The notes: generated by a model from the sequence alone, not told the origin. DNA of 64,000 bases from Candidatus Dadabacteria bacterium (GCA_009840385.1 VXNX01000013.1:262222-326221), one strand, 5' to 3'. Positions 48,139 through 60,177 are shown, counted from the first letter of the stretch. Program-made: numbers and translations.

Positions 48139-50364
48139 CTATGACCTGTGTCGGTAGGTTAGCTGCACACCGAAGGTTCTGCCTTTGGAGAGCGGCGCGA
48201 ACGAACCTCCCCCGAGTTGGGGGTGGAGCTCAACATAGCTTCCGTGTTTGACTCGGTCAAGAAGGTTCTTTCCGTAAAATCCGATTGAAAACCTGCCGTC
48301 CATCGGGGTGATATCAATTCCGGCGTCAAGAATTTTCTGCGCGGGAGTATATCCTTTGTTGTCATCTGTAAGGTATAAATTGTCGCGAAATGAATAGCTT
48401 ATTCTTGAATTCATCTTCGCCCAGTTCGCAAGTCCAGTGTCATGGGTCGCGCCGACGCTCCAAGTCCACTTCGCGGCCCGGGGAAGTTCTAAAGCTAGGT
48501 CTTTTTCGTCAAGAGTGCCGTCTAGATTAAGGTCATGTTTTACCTTGGTGTACTCGGGATCTACGTATCCGACGAAACCCAAAAGAAAAAGCTTATCGGT
48601 AACGGCAATCAGCCCGTCAACTTCAAAGCCGAAGGCTTCTACATCCGCGGTGTTGTGAATTTCCTGAGCTATGCCGCCCAAGGCCACGGATTCTGGAAGA
48701 GTTATCACTCTCTGCACATCATCGATAAAGTTATAGAAAACCGCACCGTTCAGGATGCCTATGTTTGTTGATATCTTCAATCCCGCCTCGAAGGTATCGA
48801 TCTTTTCTTCATCGTACGGTCCCGGGAGTTCCACCTCTGGGGCATAGGTATTTCGCAGATTATAGCCTCCGGAGCGGTATCCCCTGGTCCAGTGCCCGTA
48901 AACGTTCGCTTCAAAATTCGCTCCGCCGCCCATAAAATAGGCAACGCCGAGCTTGGGCGACCAACTGTTCCAAGTCTCCTCGTCGGTGAAATCAAGCGGG
49001 CATGCAGGTCCGACCGCAAAGTTGCATGGCGTTCCCTCGCTGCTTGTAATGGCGGCGGAGGAGGTTTCAGCTTCTCTCTTTTCATAGCTGTAACGGGTGC
49101 CCGCGGTAAGCATTATCCGATCCGTAAGGTCGTAATCAAAGGAGAGAAACACGCCTAGCGTATCGACGTAATAATTTCCTCCCAGATCTTGGGGGGGAAT
49201 AACTCCTCCTAACAGATAACGGCGGTCATGATAATTTATCTCGTTTGTAAAGTAATAAAAACCGGTCGTCGCGTGGAGACTTTCGAAGAATCTGCCCGCG
49301 TAGCGCAGTTCATTGCTCCACTGGCGGTAGGGGGTCCATCCACGTATATTCAAAAGGTTTTCCGGCGAAGAATCGATATCAAGCAAGGCGGACCCGTCCG
49401 CGTCGTAAAGGCCAAATATGTTCGTTATGGTTCCGTCTCCGAAACCCACATCCCAATTCACCTGAGCGGAGAAAAAGTGATTTCTATGCTCCCTGAAGCC
49501 TTCCTCGTCGATGCTGAAATCGTGACTATTAATATTGAAGTCGCGCTGGTTCTGCCCCGCAGAGCCATCGCTTTCCGAATTCTCGTACCGGTAGCGCAAA
49601 ACAAGGCTTACGTCATCCGTCGGATTCCACGTAATAACCGATCGTACCATTCGTGTGTCGTTCTCTCCGAAAGCCTCGCCCGTGTGGAAATTCTTAAACC
49701 AGCCGTTATCCTGATTTGTGTAGGCAGTTACCTTTATGCCGACGGTCTCGCTAATAGGGCCTCCGATTGTTCCCATGTAATAGCTGTTAAGGCTTTCCCC
49801 CCCTCCTTCAAACGTAGTGCGTGCCGATATCTCAAGAACATCTCCCGGTTTTTTCGTGTTAACCAGTATAGCGCCCCCTGTGACATTCCGCCCGAAAAGC
49901 GTTCCCTGCGGTCCCCTCAGCACCTCTATGCTTTCAATATCGAAGGTATCAAACAAGACGATGGTTGTCTGCCCTAGATACACGCCGTCGACAAATACCC
50001 CCACGGTCGGATCAACAGACGCTATGGAGTTGTTTATCCCGACACCGCGGATGGAAAAGTTGGCTATTGCCATTCCCGCGATGGAATCGTCAAGTGCCAC
50101 ATTGGGCACGCTCACTGCGAGGCTTTCAAGGTCGTTTACCTTCAAGGCTTCAATCTTTTCGGAACCGAAATGAGTGATCGCCAGGGGAACGTTCTGAATC
50201 AGTTCTTCTCGTTTTCGGGCGGTGACCGTGATTTTTTTGAGAAATACGCCGCTTACCCCGAACACATCCTGTGGAACTGCATCATCGTCCTGCGCAACCG
50301 CGTCACCGCCGCCGAGCGACGCTAGGAGCAGAGCTGCGAGAAACAAGCTTAAAAACTCCTTCAT
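48139..50364 (-). CDS. TonB-dependent outer-membrane receptor
   Basis: The 741-residue protein has a signal segment (EFLSLFLAALLLASLGG) and a plug domain with VTARKREELIQNVPLAI as the TonB box area, SIRGVGI and RGPQGTLFGRNVTGGAILV. A barrel of many amphipathic strands follows, ending IGFYGKNLLDRVKHGSY and LTYRHRS. The plug pattern is that of the FecA/pesticin-receptor-like group. The final residue is Ser rather than Phe, which is unusual. ATG 50364 follows CAGGA and is chosen over an in-frame start at 50433. The substrate, perhaps a siderophore, vitamin or sugar, is not known. Confidence 0.9.
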   Translation of the reverse strand: MKEFLSLFLAALLLASLGGGDAVAQDDDAVPQDVFGVSGVFLKKITVTARKREELIQNVPLAITHFGSEKIEALKVNDLESLAVSVPNVALDDSIAGMAIANFSIRGVGINNSIASVDPTVGVFVDGVYLGQTTIVLFDTFDIESIEVLRGPQGTLFGRNVTGGAILVNTKKPGDVLEISARTTFEGGGESLNSYYMGTIGGPISETVGIKVTAYTNQDNGWFKNFHTGEAFGENDTRMVRSVITWNPTDDVSLVLRYRYENSESDGSAGQNQRDFNINSHDFSIDEEGFREHRNHFFSAQVNWDVGFGDGTITNIFGLYDADGSALLDIDSSPENLLNIRGWTPYRQWSNELRYAGRFFESLHATTGFYYFTNEINYHDRRYLLGGVIPPQDLGGNYYVDTLGVFLSFDYDLTDRIMLTAGTRYSYEKREAETSSAAITSSEGTPCNFAVGPACPLDFTDEETWNSWSPKLGVAYFMGGGANFEANVYGHWTRGYRSGGYNLRNTYAPEVELPGPYDEEKIDTFEAGLKISTNIGILNGAVFYNFIDDVQRVITLPESVALGGIAQEIHNTADVEAFGFEVDGLIAVTDKLFLLGFVGYVDPEYTKVKHDLNLDGTLDEKDLALELPRAAKWTWSVGATHDTGLANWAKMNSRISYSFRDNLYLTDDNKGYTPAQKILDAGIDITPMDGRFSIGFYGKNLLDRVKHGSYVELHPQLGGGSFAPLSKGRTFGVQLTYRHRS

Positions 50365-50538
50365 TCCTGATTTGAATTTCCTTTTAATTATGACGCCCTC
50401 CTTTTTGCCAGAAATTATAACATAATCCTGCACGAAAAATCCAAGTCATCAGAGATTATTGCATAACAGGACCTATAGCGCGACTTGAAACGCTCGGTCC
50501 TAATAAACGCACGGGCATGCTTCGCCACGCAGGGAAAA

Positions 50539-54215: not shown

Positions 54216-56168
54216 TTAAGTAGCGCTCGCGGCTCGCGAATGTTTTTCCCGGTATCCGTAATGCCGTGCGAACAATAACAAGGCAAGGACAATTAGAACA
54301 GCTTGGGGGATAGCAGTTTCATAAGTGGGATATATTCCGAGAGTATCCACGTAAGGAATGAAATCCGCCGAAGTCGAGGAAATAATTCCCGATTCCTGGA
54401 ATTCCAGTATTCCCTTGCCAAGCAGTATGAAGCAGAGCAGGTAGAGGAAAATGCTCGCGAAGGAAAAAAAGTATTTAAGAGGAATCCTGAGGGTAAACCT
54501 GTACATAAGAAAAGCTATGACGAAAACAACCGCTACTCCCGCAACAAGCCCGTAGACCACGTGGGGCATGGATGAACCTGTCTGATAGAAAAGGGCCTGA
54601 TAGAAAAGCATTGTTTCGAAAGCCTCTCTGTAAACAGCCAGAAACGAAACAAAGGCAAGAGTAAATCCGCTTCTACGGGTAAGCGCGCCCTGGGTTTTGG
54701 AGCGGACGTATTCCTTCCATTTTTTTACATCTGCCTTTGAAACAAGCCAGTAACTCACGTAGAAAAGAACCACGGCTGCCAGAAGAGAAGTTACTCCCTC
54801 GACAATCTCCCTTCTCGCTCCCGAGATATCTATCACGGTCCTTGCCGCAACCCAAGTCGCAAAACCCGCAAAGATTGCAACCACCCATCCATAGTGGACG
54901 TACCTGATCATCCCGCGGTTACCTGAATGCGCCAAAGCAGCGATAATGGCCGCGATTATAAGCAGAGCCTCAAGCGCCTCTCTCAGTATTATGGCAAAAG
55001 AATTAACGAAACTCAGGTATTTGCCGAGAGACGAACCGCCTTTGAGGATACGTTCCGACTCGAGAAGATCCTCTTCTATGCTCGCTTTCAGATCACGAAG
55101 CTCGGACGAATCCCGGTCTGACATTACCCATGACCTGAAAAATCCCATTTTCTTCTCAACCTCAAAAACAAGCGCTCTCTTTTTCGAGACCAAAGCAGGC
55201 TCGATTCTCTGAAAACCCCCCAGGTACCCGTCGAGAGCCTCCTCTAACGCCTCATCTTTTCTTCCAGCTTCGTAAAGCTCTATAGCTCTTTCAAGTTTTC
55301 TAATGGTATGGGCTATAGCCTCAGAAGCTCCACCGGCAATTCCGTCCCGAAGGTAGGCGGTTCTAAGGTAAAAAAGCACGTCCCCGTCACTGCCCCCGGT
55401 CCCGGCATCAAGAAGAATCTCCGCGTTGCTTGCGAGGGCGAGATTTTCAAGTTTCCTCATATCGTCCGGGATGTCCTTAGAAGAGAATCTCGAGCCGCTT
55501 CCTCCTGAAGGAATATCCGGATACCCGAGCGAAAGAACGTAAAACGCCACATCCCACTTCTGTTTTTCGTCAAGCACCCTTTCAAACGAGGTCATGGCGG
55601 TACCTTCAATCCCGAAAGTGGTGGTGTTGTAGACTTTAAAGGGTGAGAGCCCGAGATTTATATCGGGGTCCGTGAAATCCGTGGGAGGAGGGTTAAGAGT
55701 CTTGGAGAAAGCATCATCCGGTCTTCCCGAGAGCCCGTGACAGGAGGAGCAGTTCTCCGCGTAAAGCGCCTTTCCGCTTTCGTAATCAGGAATCTTTGCC
55801 GGGTATGGCTTTATGTCATAGGCCGAGATGATCCGCCCCTTGAGTTCACCGGCAAGACTTTCCACCTCGGAGGTGGGACCTCTGGATACTATGATTGAGT
55901 GAAGGCGCGCAAACTTTTCGGAAAAATCCGCCGTCTCTTCTCTCTTTTCCACAGCCTTTTCCCACAGTTCAACTGCGGCGGAAGAGAAATCCAGCATCTC
56001 CTGATACTCAAATTCGTTTATGATCTTCCCGTCTTCAACAGCGTTTAGGTAATCTCCCCCTATGTAGTCGACAAGAGAGAGGATCCTATCCATCTCTCCC
56101 GCGTAGGAAAGTCCCGGAAAAAGAAAAAATATGAGAACGGTTACACGGAAGAGACTTTTTCTAAGCAT
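54216..56168 (-). CDS. Cytochrome c/FTR1-family iron permease fusion
   Basis: The 650-residue protein has a signal peptide, then a helical region and a cytochrome c domain with heme motif CSSCHG near residue 140 and an axial Met in GTAMTSF. The C-terminal half is the FTR1 permease of about seven helices, with three acidic REXXE-type motifs (REALE near 395, REIVEG, REAFE near 511). In the family these bind ferric iron for transport through the inner membrane, and the cytochrome is thought to oxidise Fe(II). It diverges from the porin across 274 bases. A Cys-rich or multicopper partner is absent. Confidence 0.92.
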   Translation of the reverse strand: MLRKSLFRVTVLIFFLFPGLSYAGEMDRILSLVDYIGGDYLNAVEDGKIINEFEYQEMLDFSSAAVELWEKAVEKREETADFSEKFARLHSIIVSRGPTSEVESLAGELKGRIISAYDIKPYPAKIPDYESGKALYAENCSSCHGLSGRPDDAFSKTLNPPPTDFTDPDINLGLSPFKVYNTTTFGIEGTAMTSFERVLDEKQKWDVAFYVLSLGYPDIPSGGSGSRFSSKDIPDDMRKLENLALASNAEILLDAGTGGSDGDVLFYLRTAYLRDGIAGGASEAIAHTIRKLERAIELYEAGRKDEALEEALDGYLGGFQRIEPALVSKKRALVFEVEKKMGFFRSWVMSDRDSSELRDLKASIEEDLLESERILKGGSSLGKYLSFVNSFAIILREALEALLIIAAIIAALAHSGNRGMIRYVHYGWVVAIFAGFATWVAARTVIDISGARREIVEGVTSLLAAVVLFYVSYWLVSKADVKKWKEYVRSKTQGALTRRSGFTLAFVSFLAVYREAFETMLFYQALFYQTGSSMPHVVYGLVAGVAVVFVIAFLMYRFTLRIPLKYFFSFASIFLYLLCFILLGKGILEFQESGIISSTSADFIPYVDTLGIYPTYETAIPQAVLIVLALLLFARHYGYREKHSRAASAT

Positions 56169-56209
56169 GGTTTATAACCATTTCCACATCTGGGAACTGG
56201 GAAGCGTAT

Positions 56210-56238
56210 TTTTTATCATTCTAGACCTTTATTGTCAA
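56210..56238 (-). promoter_or_regulatory. Candidate promoter of the FTR1 fusion gene
   Basis: Minus strand TTGACA (56238-56233) and TAAAAA (56215-56210) are spaced by 17 bases. The -35 is perfect and the -10 is weak. It runs divergent from the porin promoter. Confidence 0.4.
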
Positions 56239-56312
56239 TAATTCTCACTGCCGTTATCTTTGAAGACAGAAAGGAAATCAGGTGGACAATTCAGCTGATT
56301 TTCTCCTTGGCA

Positions 56313-56332
56313 AATATTTCTCAAAAAATATT
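56313..56332. repeat. AATATTT/AAATATT palindrome upstream of the porin promoter
   Basis: AATATTT (56313-56319) and AAATATT (56326-56332) form a perfect 7-bp dyad with a 6-bp spacer, directly before the -35 at 56334. It could be an UP element or an activator site. Confidence 0.4.
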
Positions 56333-56333
56333 C

Positions 56334-56362
56334 TTGACATCCTAGGTCCAGGATGTTATTAA
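56334..56362 (+). promoter_or_regulatory. Sigma-70 promoter of the porin gene
   Basis: TTGACA (56334-56339) and TATTAA (56357-56362) are 17 bases apart. The start near 56369 leaves a leader of about 75 bases before ATG 56443 with AAAGGAGG at 56426. Confidence 0.75.
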
Positions 56363-56375
56363 TTTCCATCCTGGA
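56347..56375. promoter_or_regulatory. Perfect 9-bp inverted repeat, candidate repressor operator
   Basis: TCCAGGATG (56347-56355) and CATCCTGGA (56367-56375) flank the -10 element, with the TATTAA in the 11-bp spacer. A further CATCCT at 56339-56344 forms a dyad with AGGATG at 56350, and GATATC occurs at 56374 and 56390. Binding here would cover the polymerase site. The regulator is unknown; the sequence is not the Fur consensus. Confidence 0.6.
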
Positions 56376-56442
56376 TATCAATTATCCATGATATCTATCA
56401 CTTGTACAAACATAATAAGCTGCAAAAGGAGGATGTTAAGAA

Positions 56443-57756
56443 ATGGTCAATTATATAATACGGTGGAAACCACTTTTAGCCTTTTTCCTGATTTTCTCAC
56501 TAGGGAGCACACAGGTTTCTCTCGCGGGTACGGCTTCGGAGGAAAGGATAAAAAGGCTTGAGGAACAGATAAAGATTCTCGCAGACGAAATAGAAGCCAT
56601 AAAATCCGCTTCGGTAACGGAGCCTCCCGTATACGAAATGGAATTCGGGGTGGCCCCGGCAGCTTCAAAGGTCTACAGGGTTGACCAAGGAGTATCTTTT
56701 GGAGGATACGGTGAGCTGCTCGTAGCCAATGTAAAAGAGGATTCACACGACGTAGTGGATACACTGAGACTGGTTCTCTATAACGGCTACAAGTACAACG
56801 ACCACATAGTTTTTAACTCGGAGATAGAGTTCGAACACGGCACAACGGGAAGCAACAAGGACGGAAAAGAGGGTTCGGCGTCGGTTGAGTTTGCGCTGAT
56901 TGACTTTCTTATCAGCGATCAGTTCAACCTGAGGGGCGGTCTTCTCCTGGCTCCTTTTGGAGTCGTCAACGAAGTTCACGAACCGACGACGTTTTACGGA
57001 GTAGGCAGGCCTTCGGTTGAGAGACAGATAGTTCCCTCTACATGGAGAGAAGCGGGAGCCGGAGCACACGGAACGTTCGATCTGGGTAGCATAGGAGCGC
57101 TCTCATACAGAGCCTACGGAATGTCGAGTTTCGATTCGCGGGGATTCAAGGCATCAAACAACAGGAGTCTTCGGATAAAGGGAAACAGGGCTAGGTTCGA
57201 CGACATAGCTTTTGTCGGAAGACTTGAATACGACCCGATTCCGGGAGTCAAGATCGGAGGATCCCTGTACTACGGCAACACGGGTCAGGACGAGGAATTT
57301 AACGGCCAGACGATAGACGGTCTTTTCAAGATGTACTCGGTGGACGCGCAGTTTCAGTACGCAGGACTTGACTTAAGGGCGCTGTCCGTGTGGACAAGTC
57401 TTGATGACGCTGCACTTATAAACCAGAACAACGGCCTTGAAGGCAACAAATCTGTCGGAGAAAAACAGTCCGGCTGGTATGTTCTCGGAGGGTACAACAT
57501 CTTCTCCATGCTTAACTCGGGAAGCAAGTACATGGAGTATCTTGCGCCTTTTATCCGGTACGAAAAATACGACTCTCAGAAGGAGGTCCCCACCGGGTAT
57601 GAAAGAGACCCAGCAAATAATAGGACCGAATATACTTTCGGGATAAATTACAAACCGATTTCAAACGTGGTAATAAAAGCCGAATATCAGAAGCTTGACA
57701 ACGAAGCAAGTGAGGCGAAGGATCAGTTTAACTTTGGGCTCGGATATGTGTTTTAG
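56443..57756 (+). CDS. Outer-membrane porin-like beta-barrel protein
   Basis: The 437-residue protein has a signal peptide (LLAFFLIFSLGSTQVSLAG), a coiled-coil segment EERIKRLEEQIKILADEIEA at about 31-50 and then a barrel with alternating strands (FGGYGELLVANV, LVLYNGYKYNDHIVFNSEIE, NLRGGLLLAPFGVVNE, VGRLEYDPIPGVKIGG). It ends FNFGLGYVF with a terminal Phe. The coiled coil then barrel resembles OprP/phosphate-type or OmpM-like porins tethered to the cell wall. It diverges from the FTR1 fusion and lies upstream of the FMN-binding gene, so a role in iron or metal entry is plausible (inference). Confidence 0.85.
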   Translation: MVNYIIRWKPLLAFFLIFSLGSTQVSLAGTASEERIKRLEEQIKILADEIEAIKSASVTEPPVYEMEFGVAPAASKVYRVDQGVSFGGYGELLVANVKEDSHDVVDTLRLVLYNGYKYNDHIVFNSEIEFEHGTTGSNKDGKEGSASVEFALIDFLISDQFNLRGGLLLAPFGVVNEVHEPTTFYGVGRPSVERQIVPSTWREAGAGAHGTFDLGSIGALSYRAYGMSSFDSRGFKASNNRSLRIKGNRARFDDIAFVGRLEYDPIPGVKIGGSLYYGNTGQDEEFNGQTIDGLFKMYSVDAQFQYAGLDLRALSVWTSLDDAALINQNNGLEGNKSVGEKQSGWYVLGGYNIFSMLNSGSKYMEYLAPFIRYEKYDSQKEVPTGYERDPANNRTEYTFGINYKPISNVVIKAEYQKLDNEASEAKDQFNFGLGYVF

Positions 57757-57777
57757 GGTACGAGACTTAAATCCGCG

Positions 57778-57806
57778 ATAAACGGGCGCGGGTTTATGTT
57801 TTTTTT
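57778..57806 (+). terminator. Intrinsic terminator of the porin gene
   Basis: ATAAAC (57778) and GTTTAT (57792) flank GGGCGCGG, followed by eight Ts from 57799. This is a standard stem plus U tract. Confidence 0.65.
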
Positions 57807-57826
57807 CTCTCTTTCTCTCTCTTCAC

Positions 57827-57857
57827 AAGGGCAATATTCAGATAGAATGTTGCCCTT
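57827..57857 (+). other. 13-bp hairpin directly before the FMN-binding gene start
   Basis: Arms 57827-57839 (AAGGGCAATATTC) and 57845-57857 (GAATGTTGCCCTT) pair in 12 of 13 positions, with one G-T pair, around AGATA. It lies nine bases before ATG 57866, where a ribosome site would normally be. It could act as a terminator or as a translation control element. Confidence 0.6.
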
Positions 57858-57865
57858 ATTCTACC

Positions 57866-58417
57866 ATGACTATGAAAATCCTCATGTTAATAACGCTTGT
57901 GTTTCTTTTCCATGGTGCAGAAGACGCCTCCGCCAAAGTCCTTCTTACCAAGGGCAAGGCGCTTGAACTTGCTTTCCCGAAAGCCGACGAAGTGGAAAAA
58001 AGGCATGTTTTTCTTACCGAGCGCCAAGCCGAGAGCATACGCAAGATGGCCAAGGCTGAGGTAAATTCAAGACTCTACACCTTCTATGTAGCAAAGTCCG
58101 GCGGAAAGGAAACAGGCTACGCGGTTATCGATACCCATACTCTTCGAACCCTGACTGAGACCGTAATGTTCGTAATAAACCCTGACGGGACGCTTCGCCA
58201 CGCCGAGATTCTTGCGTTTTTTGAACCCACAGATTACATGCCGAGCGGAAAATGGATAAACTTGTTCCCAAGAAAAACCAAGCTGGACAAAATGAAAGTA
58301 GGCAAAGGAATCCCCAATATCACAGGAGCAACAATAAGCGCCAGATCCTTTTCAACAACCACAAGAAGGGTTCTAGCCGTCTATCGGGTTATGTTCGGGG
58401 TTCCGGCTGATTCATAA
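57866..58417 (+). CDS. Exported FMN-binding domain protein
   Basis: The 183-residue protein has a signal peptide (MKILMLITLVFLFHGAEDASA). The FMN-binding domain is seen in KSGGKETGYAVIDTHTLRT and FFEPTDYMPSGKW. The conserved site ITGATIS near 152-158 (T-G-A-T) is where FMN is linked by ester bond to Thr in the NqrC/RnfG and FMN-bind families. The transferase ApbE is encoded two genes further. The flavin should act in the periplasm. The start is ATG 57866 or the in-frame ATG 57872; neither has a ribosome site. Confidence 0.88.
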   Translation: MTMKILMLITLVFLFHGAEDASAKVLLTKGKALELAFPKADEVEKRHVFLTERQAESIRKMAKAEVNSRLYTFYVAKSGGKETGYAVIDTHTLRTLTETVMFVINPDGTLRHAEILAFFEPTDYMPSGKWINLFPRKTKLDKMKVGKGIPNITGATISARSFSTTTRRVLAVYRVMFGVPADS

Positions 58418-58438
58418 TTAGCTGTCCAAGAGAGAGAA

Positions 58439-58936
58439 ATGAAATTCTTTATCTCAGGAGATATAAGAAAAAACGACCTGCTGAAACTCGTCGTCCTGCT
58501 CACGACGATTTTCTTTCTCTTTTTGTGGCTAACCAACCTTCTGCTTTTTTTGAAGGTGGGATTCAGTTATGAAAGCGTCGTCGAGTACTACAGGGGGTCC
58601 GAGGAGAGCTTCAGGCCTCCGAGAAGCTACCTGGGGCTACTTGAAGAAGCTCATTTCCACCTTTTCTCAATGGCCGTTTTGCTTGTAACTCTTAACCACC
58701 TGTTCCTTTTCACGAACAGAAGTTCCGCCGAAAAGCTCCTCGTGATAATCGCGTCATACGGTTCGGCTTTCCTCGATATAGCCGGCGGCTGGCTCGTAAG
58801 ATACGTAAGCGCCGAATTCGCTTATGTTAAGATCGGTTCTTTTGTCGTCCTTCAGATATCCCTTCTGTATCTAATCGCCATCGTAACGGTTTACCTCTAT
58901 AGAAAAAAGCCCGAATACCCGAAGCCACCGCAATGA
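58439..58936 (+). CDS. Four-helix membrane protein, possible heme-binding electron carrier
   Basis: The 165-residue protein has four hydrophobic segments, roughly 15-40, 72-92, 98-117 and 127-153. His72, His74 and His87 lie at the second segment (AHFHLFSMAVLLVTLNHLF). The H-x12-H spacing on one helix is like heme b ligands. GGW in AGGWLVRYVSAEF is also noted. No named family is recalled. It lies 21 bases downstream of the FMN-binding gene and converges with apbE. It may pass electrons from the membrane to the FMN protein (inference). Confidence 0.65.
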   Translation: MKFFISGDIRKNDLLKLVVLLTTIFFLFLWLTNLLLFLKVGFSYESVVEYYRGSEESFRPPRSYLGLLEEAHFHLFSMAVLLVTLNHLFLFTNRSSAEKLLVIIASYGSAFLDIAGGWLVRYVSAEFAYVKIGSFVVLQISLLYLIAIVTVYLYRKKPEYPKPPQ

Positions 58937-58946
58937 CCCCGGAACG

Positions 58947-59924
58947 CTAGGGGCACACGTAAGACCCGAAGCAGGATTTTTCCTCTCCTTTCCCCCCGAC
59001 AACCAGAAAACCCAGGGACTTATCCCTCTGGACAAACGTCTGCGCGCCGGGCAGACCAAGAACCGAAACGGCTGTCGAGAAGACATCAGCTTCCGTAGCG
59101 GTCCTAGAAACGGCAACGACAGAAGTCACGTCCCCGGCAGGCCAACCCGTTCTGGGATCTATTATATGGGAGTATCTTTTCCCCCCGTGCTCAAAGTAGC
59201 GTTCGTAATCCCCCGAAGTCGCAACACCCTTGTTCACAAGATCAATATTTGAGATGATTTCACTGTCGCTCCCGGGCTTCCTTACTCCCACATACCAGAA
59301 TTTCTTGCCGGCGGGAGGATTCATCGCATATATGTTTCCCCCGAAATTCACAAGTCCCCTCGTGATCCCGTTTTGCCTGGCAATCCTTACCATCTCGTCA
59401 ACCGCGTAGCCCTTTCCGATGGCACCGAAATCGAGTCTGAGGCAATCCGTGTCAAAGAAAACCTGAGATTTGGCTTCGTCTATCTTTATTTTCCGAAAAC
59501 CTGTACACCTAAGCGCACTGTGTATCCGTGATTTCTCGGGCAGCCGTCCCGCAACGGTTTCAGCACGCCAGAGCTCAAAAAGACTACCGATAGTTATGTC
59601 AAAAGCTCCGCCGGTAATTTCCGAGTAATTAACCGAGATCCGCACGAGACGCAGAAACTCCCCGGGAACGGATACGGGACGGGCCCCCGCGTTTCTGTTA
59701 ACTTCCGCAAGGACGCTGTCGTCCCTGTAGTTGCTGAAAAGCCGGTCTATTTCCTTGGTTCTCTCAACGCAGGCATCGACAACCCGGTGAAAAAGCTCCT
59801 CGCTCGGGGAATAGAACTTGAGTTCTACGGTTGAGCCCATCGAGTGAAAAGATCTCTCGTAGAGATGCTCTGTGCTTTGAGAACAGGAACAGAAAAGCAG
59901 AACTAGAAGCGCAATCAGGCGCAT
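58947..59924 (-). CDS. apbE: FAD:protein FMN transferase ApbE, lipoprotein form
   Basis: ApbE attaches FMN to Thr of FMN-binding proteins in the periplasm. The 325-residue protein has a lipobox-like FCSC after a short signal, MGSTVELKFYSPSEELFH, the metal region GGAFDITIGSLFELWR, and FGAIGKGYAVDEMVRIA (GKGYAvD, FAD site). RTGWPAGDVTSVVAVSRTATEADVFSTAVSVLG is its Mg-binding end. It converges with the four-helix gene and lies 28 bases downstream of tRNA-Leu on the same strand. Confidence 0.93.
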   Translation of the reverse strand: MRLIALLVLLFCSCSQSTEHLYERSFHSMGSTVELKFYSPSEELFHRVVDACVERTKEIDRLFSNYRDDSVLAEVNRNAGARPVSVPGEFLRLVRISVNYSEITGGAFDITIGSLFELWRAETVAGRLPEKSRIHSALRCTGFRKIKIDEAKSQVFFDTDCLRLDFGAIGKGYAVDEMVRIARQNGITRGLVNFGGNIYAMNPPAGKKFWYVGVRKPGSDSEIISNIDLVNKGVATSGDYERYFEHGGKRYSHIIDPRTGWPAGDVTSVVAVSRTATEADVFSTAVSVLGLPGAQTFVQRDKSLGFLVVGGKGEEKSCFGSYVCP

Positions 59925-59952: not shown

Positions 59953-60034
59953 TGCGAGAGGAGGGAGTCGAACCCTCACACCCTAAGGTACTAGATCCTA
60001 AATCTAGCGCGTCTGCCTATTCCGCCACTCTCGC
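59953..60034 (-). tRNA. tRNA-Leu (TAG)
   Basis: Class II tRNA: acceptor GCGAGAG/CTCTCGC, anticodon stem CTAGA/TCTAG with loop TTTAGGA (TAG), long variable arm, T arm GAGGG TTCGACT CCCTC, discriminator A. No CCA encoded. It is followed 28 bases later by apbE on the same strand. Confidence 0.95.
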
Positions 60035-60060
60035 TCTTTAAAGTCAAAACCGGCAAGTGC

Positions 60061-60077
60061 CTGGAATCGCATTCCAG
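60061..60077. repeat. Hairpin between tRNA-Lys and tRNA-Leu
   Basis: CTGGAAT and ATTCCAG with loop CGC, perfect 7-bp stem. A possible processing signal between the two tRNAs. Confidence 0.45.
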
Positions 60078-60103
60078 ACAGCGCCGCAAGACGCAAAATG
60101 AAA

Positions 60104-60177
60104 TGGGCTGCGAGGGATTCGAACCCACGACCGACTGATTAAGAGTCAGCTGCTCTACCAGGCTGAGCTAGCAGCCC
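60104..60177 (-). tRNA. tRNA-Lys (CTT)
   Basis: Acceptor GGGCTGC/GCAGCCC, D arm GCTC/GAGC, anticodon stem GCTGA/TCAGT with loop CTCTTAA (CTT), T arm GTGGG TTCGAAT CCCTC with one T-T mismatch, discriminator A, no CCA encoded. It lies upstream of tRNA-Leu(TAG) on the same strand. Confidence 0.93.

Follow-up and report, generated by a model that had tools for sequence, protein, structure and literature searches.

Genes and regulatory elements at the locus

The locus described here lies at positions 54,216 to 59,924 of a 64,000-nucleotide stretch of DNA from a Candidatus Dadabacteria bacterium (GCA_009840385.1 VXNX01000013.1:262222-326221), which is called the window below and belongs to a genome of 1.65 Mb. 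It holds genes for a cytochrome c-FTR1 iron permease fusion, a porin (POR), an exported protein of the flavin mononucleotide (FMN)-binding type (the FMN protein), a four-helix membrane protein (TM4) and the FMN transferase ApbE. A first-pass annotation of the window had named the same five genes, and open reading frame and Pfam checks found all of them present and correctly placed. By direction they form three transcription units, the FTR1 fusion being divergent and ApbE convergent relative to POR-FMN-TM4, and the five genes are thus not a single operon. The features are as follows.

54216..56168, minus strand: cytochrome c-FTR1 iron permease fusion, 650 amino acids (Pfam); a partner, not part of the core
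56214..56238, minus strand: FTR1 promoter element TTGACA-N8-CTAGAATGATA (alignment and pattern scan)
56334..56358, plus strand: porin-operon promoter element TTGACA-N8-CCAGGATGTTA, with the layout of the FTR1 promoter (alignment and pattern scan)
56373..56387, no strand: inverted repeat GGATA-N5-TATCC, a likely operator just 3' of the porin promoter (alignment)
56443..57756, plus strand: POR, outer-membrane porin, 437 amino acids (predicted model, Foldseek)
57866..58417, plus strand: FMN protein, exported, FMN_bind/RnfG-like, 183 amino acids (Pfam, family profile)
58439..58936, plus strand: TM4, four-helix inner-membrane protein, 165 amino acids (predicted model, alignment)
58947..59924, minus strand: ApbE, FAD:protein FMN transferase (Pfam, E 7e-79)

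The divergent starts of FTR1 and POR are 274 bp apart, and this short intergenic region carries two conserved promoters of matching layout. The FTR1 element is conserved in an alignment of 12 loci, another genus included, and the TTGACA-N8 promoter pattern occurred three times in the 64 kb, compared with 0.42 matches expected. The inverted repeat was also conserved as far as another genus. A scan of the own genome with the operator pattern GGATAT-N3-ATATCC-AN2ATAT, allowing up to 2 mismatches, returned the POR site only and no regulon; the regulator may therefore be dedicated or local.

In the FTR1 fusion a signal is followed by a periplasmic helical part, a monohaem cytochrome c (Pfam Cytochrom_C, E 1e-9; haem motif CSSCH at 140) and the FTR1 domain (E 2e-29). 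The latter carries the two REXXE motifs of FTR1/EfeU permeases (REALE at 396 and REAFE at 514). This is the single FTR1 gene of the genome, in which no FeoB was found.

The POR-FMN-TM4 triad and ApbE

The FMN protein was present in one copy in 41 of the 58 genomes of the window's phylum. Almost all fetched loci that were long enough showed its gene between those of POR and TM4, in unchanged order; in the genomes G001 and G002, ApbE sat between FMN and TM4. Relatives of TM4 were sought by a profile-guided scan with one genome per species; phylum names were taken from the titles of records, mostly metagenome-assembled genomes, and have no trees behind them. Relatives were found in Nitrospirae, Gemmatimonadetes, Latescibacterota, Acidobacteria, Myxococcales and Verrucomicrobiales, and in further records from Planctomycetia, Armatimonadetes, Oligoflexia and others. 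Where at least 2.6 kb upstream of the TM4 relative was available, the order POR-FMN-TM4 on one strand was kept at 64 of 65 loci bearing the names of about ten phyla, the sole exception (L097) having a truncated TM4 remnant. As judged from gene order, this conservation is far above chance, and the true conserved unit is the porin, the FMN protein and TM4, which is both smaller and far more widespread than the five-gene set of the first-pass annotation. Porin, FMN protein, TM4 and ApbE did prove co-conserved, but FTR1 varied across genomes, and the five-gene set was rejected as a unit. In nearly all Nitrospirota copies an extra small lipoprotein-like gene with a weak DUF3576/NlpB match lies between POR and FMN (e.g. 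L139:7767-8201).

POR has a signal peptide, a short N-terminal coiled coil and, in an AlphaFold model (predicted local distance difference test, pLDDT, 80), a 16-strand barrel, which Foldseek matched to OmpC/OmpF-type porins (E 1e-13). The predicted model shows the 16 strands, the long loop after strand 5 and the C-terminal Phe of general porins. The invariant residues are E127, E129, E131 and H132 in strand 3 and N176, H179 and R189 in the long loop. As the three glutamates alternate along the strand they face one side, and the loop residues occupy the position of the constriction loop of general porins; that the pore is cation-selective is a reasonable inference from the model. OmpC itself has been reported to cooperate with Feo in taking up ferrous iron (PMC7315122). 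The porin had been thought to be tethered to the cell wall, but Pfam detected no SLH or peptidoglycan-binding domain in it or in 25 relatives, and an SLH/OmpM-type porin was rejected.

The FMN protein of the window scored 18.9 bits against Pfam FMN_bind, just under the cut-off of 22 bits, and for this reason a Pfam FMN_bind search of the own genome gave nothing over threshold. Its relatives exceed the cut-off, and the family profile matched RnfG with an E value of 3e-17. The protein is predicted to be exported to the periplasm, with no membrane anchor beyond the signal peptide, and has the conserved acceptor threonine of the (S/T)GAT motif; this residue, T156 (N-I-T-G-A-T), is invariant in 67 of 67 sequences and is the predicted flavinylation site. 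In part of the marine family f8 (e.g. L061, L062, L065) an NST-type sequence (SNST/ANST) takes the place of TGAT and ApbE is still there, which may reflect either a relaxed acceptor motif or decay.

ApbE has a lipoprotein-type N-terminus. Since the genome encodes only one ApbE and one FMN protein, the latter is likely the substrate of the former, and the two are encoded together as in ApbE-dependent flavinylation systems. Counting ApbE matches with E < 1e-20 as strong, 40 genomes of the phylum had both triad and ApbE, 1 the triad only, 3 ApbE only and 14 neither (Fisher p 9e-10, uncorrected for relatedness and therefore descriptive, as the genomes are not independent). In genomes at least 90% complete the corresponding numbers were 33, 0, 1 and 9. 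The two proteins are fused, in both domain orders, at seven loci (L110, L118, L121, L126, L131, L212, L214).

A natural deletion was found in a congener (G018). It runs from codon 88 of POR into ApbE, as far as roughly codon 40 of that gene, and the promoter and operator of POR are absent as well, while FTR1 and its promoter are intact. The module is therefore dispensable and was lost jointly with ApbE. In the window, genes for tRNA-Leu and tRNA-Lys (59953-60177) lie directly beyond the ApbE start, near one end of this deletion. The TM4 remnant at L097:4629-5057, where the porin and FMN genes are gone, represents a second independent loss of the module.

Four unrelated genes might also stay together by chance in slowly rearranging genomes. 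FTR1 adjoins the triad, divergently, throughout the window's family (f1) wherever contigs reach, but clpX, clpP, tig and M16 around the locus are equally syntenic in the window's genus, so that the f1 adjacency of FTR1 alone is weak evidence. Such chance synteny is nevertheless extremely improbable as an account of the locus. The order of the triad is held across about ten phyla with differing flanks, ApbE and FMN domains are fused and the set was lost together in G018; for the triad with ApbE, cross-phylum order, fusions and co-occurrence refute it.

Iron genes beside the triad

The main result is that the triad lies beside iron genes of three unrelated kinds, namely FTR1, FeoB and Fur-FbpABC. 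FTR1 is adjacent in f1, in part of f8 and in one Nitrospirota lineage; other lineages have it at a distance in the genome or lack it. At three loci of the marine family f8 the genes follow one another on one strand as ApbE-POR-FMN-TM4-(116 amino acids)-FTR1, the 116-amino-acid gene overlapping TM4 by 4 bp; at a fourth, FTR1 and ApbE are divergent from POR. The Nitrospirota locus L214 has the order Fur, cupredoxin, FTR1, POR, ApbE-FMN fusion, TM4. Across the window's phylum, 32 genomes had both triad and FTR1, 9 the triad only, 8 FTR1 only and 9 neither (Fisher p 0.03), a weak link that would be expected if the permease is exchangeable.

FeoB was divergent from POR at all 12 loci with sufficient upstream sequence from the G058 phylum and its close relatives; these amount to at least nine genomes, since L108/L169, L123/L173 and L125/L174 are possibly same-species pairs. 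In Nitrospirota, Fur, FbpA, a permease and FbpC were located upstream of the triad at 17 of 20 sampled loci, and at six soil-clade loci FbpC lay directly upstream of POR. Two of the FbpA proteins matched solved ferric-iron-binding proteins (E 4e-42 and 3e-52). Fur is also found beside the triad at L212 and L215. A small control of background loci gave no match to the iron-gene queries.

This convergence of unrelated iron genes supports the iron reading of the first-pass annotation, which had seen a flavinylation-based electron-transfer set tied to iron; the co-occurrence with ApbE and the ApbE-FMN fusions speak for the same idea, and the place of FTR1 within the conserved unit had to be given up, as it varies, lies elsewhere or is absent in other lineages. 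Delivery of electrons to a periplasmic flavin with iron as the target is the best-supported account. The locus would then probably be an assimilatory periplasmic ferric-reductase module coupled to an iron permease.

The same neighbours could be read in the opposite direction. Electrons might reach the flavoprotein from Fe(II), or else from the cytochrome of the FTR1 fusion, and go on through TM4 to quinone; the system would then oxidise ferrous iron or protect from iron stress, and its ferric product would serve FTR1 and FbpABC. Sequence does not fix which way the electrons flow, and both the cytochrome c-fused FTR1 and FbpABC would suit a ferric product, but the FeoB partners require ferrous iron. 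The potential of covalent FMN of the RnfG type is low, which fits iron reduction better, and this second reading is quite unlikely.

A periplasmic reductase whose target is not iron but a siderophore, a cofactor, an oxidised protein or a different metal, with the iron genes nearby for regulatory reasons, would agree with the many triads that have no adjacent iron transporter and with the haem biosynthesis genes that adjoin the triad in Blastocatellia. It is hard to reconcile with three unrelated types of iron transporter and Fur recurring in one place, and with the f8 FTR1 on the same strand, joined through the gene that overlaps TM4, and was considered very unlikely.

Several observations weigh against an iron-reducing module. 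No iron gene adjoining the triad was found in most f2 and f7 Dadabacteria, or at the loci from Myxococcota, Acidobacteriota, Verrucomicrobia and Oligoflexia, and the neighbourhoods of a single clade do not count as independent cases. The cargo of FbpABC is ferric iron, so that a ferrous product is not needed there, and FTR1 survives without the triad in G018. Part of f8 has a degenerate flavinylation motif, SNST for TGAT, and the operator does not have the form of a recognised Fur box.

Two further features of the surroundings were recorded. At L105 and L106 (Blastocatellia/Acidobacteria), hemC, hemD, hemB and hemL were read immediately upstream of POR-FMN-TM4-ApbE. In the window, a TonB-dependent receptor (48139-50433) lies a few genes upstream, and its synteny is kept in the genus.

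TM4, proposed mechanism and comparison with known systems

TM4, the His-bearing four-helix protein of the first-pass annotation, consists in its predicted model (pLDDT 91) of four long helices. Its invariant residues in the alignment are Y51, E69, H72, F73, H74, F76, H87 and W118, the three histidines being conserved in 66-67 of 67 sequences. If the protein is oriented by the positive-inside rule, the end of helix 2 that bears H72 and H74 would face the periplasm, and H87 would sit closer to the cytoplasmic side. H72 and H87 share one helix face with a spacing of 15 residues, as also occurs in two-haem b cytochromes. The invariant histidines suggest binding of haem or quinol, and electron transfer through TM4 is plausible. 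As the monomer has no opposite His pair, haem could be bound only by a dimer. In more distant TM4-like proteins, however, H72 is kept and H87 is not, so that a haem-free quinol site is equally possible. No relative of TM4 was found in Pfam, NCBIfam or the PDB, and the best Foldseek match had an E value of 1.7, although a solved DUF4405 structure may be missing from the library. Membership of the PepSY, MsrQ or DUF4405 families was rejected for lack of a sequence or fold match.

Among the distant relatives, a TM4-like domain with an N-terminal CxxCH cytochrome c motif was found at L203:8948-9724, L202:5124-5849 and L207:8006-8812. It keeps the HxH motif and belongs to no Pfam or NCBIfam family, and at L203 the fusion adjoins genes for the Rieske protein and cytochrome b of a bc-type complex. 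A second arrangement, at L175-L177, combines a distant TM4-like protein with a different probable barrel protein (366-395 amino acids), an FMN protein (L176, L177), ApbE (L176) and a multihaem cytochrome (L175), next to glutamyl-tRNA reductase-like genes.

These relatives bear on the idea that the locus serves respiratory or extracellular electron transfer, in which porin and flavoprotein would cross the outer membrane like porin-cytochrome conduits, TM4 would oxidise quinol and the iron genes would merely share control by Fur. The multihaem cytochromes, barrel-like protein, ApbE and FMN protein that accompany distant TM4 relatives at L175-L177, and the cytochrome c-TM4 fusion inside the Rieske/cytochrome b operon, are in its favour. 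Most triad loci, however, have no cytochrome partner, the 183-residue flavoprotein offers one flavin site and the modelled porin is no larger than general porins usually are. The recurring neighbours, moreover, are genes of iron uptake and not of respiration. We therefore regard such a conduit as unlikely.

For the assimilatory ferric reductase the following route is proposed. Iron, free or weakly chelated, would pass the outer membrane through the porin, which has invariant Glu and His residues in its barrel wall and constriction loop. TM4 would draw electrons from the membrane quinol pool, possibly via a b haem on the conserved histidines, and hand them to the FMN that ApbE would have linked covalently to T156 in the exported protein. 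The flavin would reduce Fe(III) to Fe(II), and the iron would be imported by whichever permease the lineage has, i.e. the cytochrome c-FTR1 fusion here and FeoB or an Fbp-type ferric ATP-binding cassette (ABC) transporter elsewhere. When Fe(II) is oxidised again on its way through FTR1, the electron released may go to the fused cytochrome.

The set was not found described in the literature on FMN_bind, FTR1, FeoB and flavinylation in iron contexts. We tentatively suggest, as a possibility falling somewhat short of even, that porin, flavoprotein, TM4 and ApbE form an undescribed reductive iron-uptake machine reaching from the outer to the inner membrane and plugging into FTR1, FeoB or FbpABC, with TM4 as a new family whose site would probably arise by homodimerisation. 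Reductive iron uptake in Gram-negative bacteria needs a periplasmic electron source. If the suggestion is true, the module would be this source in marine Dadabacteria and in lineages of the Nitrospira and Gemmatimonadota types, many of them uncultured and living at scarce iron, and a conserved membrane family unnamed in Pfam and NCBIfam would gain a function and testable residues. As the triad is kept and its permease partner is exchanged, the reduction of iron and its transport may have evolved as separable parts.

The FMN protein resembles the covalent-FMN subunits RnfG and NqrC in its family match to RnfG and in the T of SGAT/TGAT, but the other Rnf/Nqr subunits are not encoded beside it. 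Yeast reductive iron assimilation (Fre, Fet3, Ftr1) follows the logic proposed for the locus, a ferric reductase followed by FTR1-linked oxidation, and the FTR1 of the locus bears a fused cytochrome c; the reductase differs and there is no multicopper oxidase, so that this is an analogy only. EfeO and EfeB were not recognised among seven Pfam-scanned neighbours, the rest of the genome not having been searched.

The P19-FTR1-FMN_bind iron assimilation clusters, for which assimilatory iron reduction was suggested (Meheust et al. 2021, PMC8238504), share FTR1 and an extracytosolic FMN_bind protein with the locus. Together with the DUF4405/FezC cytochromes they are the nearest published cases, and this porin and TM4 appear in neither description. 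Those clusters are mostly Gram-positive and were described without porin or TM4, their membrane electron source being said to be encoded elsewhere (PMC8238504). None of the five window proteins is a P19 (PF10634), for which no genome-wide search was made.

In PepSY-like (FoxB type) and MsrQ systems an inner-membrane carrier feeds a periplasmic flavin or iron chelates, as is proposed for TM4 with its flavin, often together with iron uptake, but no relation of TM4 to them was detected in sequence or fold. The flavinylation- and ferrosome-associated b-type cytochromes DUF4405 and FezC are, like TM4, small and membrane-bound and occur near apbE or iron genes (PMC10979944). DUF4405 has six helices and four central histidines, whereas TM4 has four helices and no PF14358 match. 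FezC was proposed to form haem sites by homodimerisation (PMC10979944), and the three conserved histidines of TM4 might form such sites in the same way.

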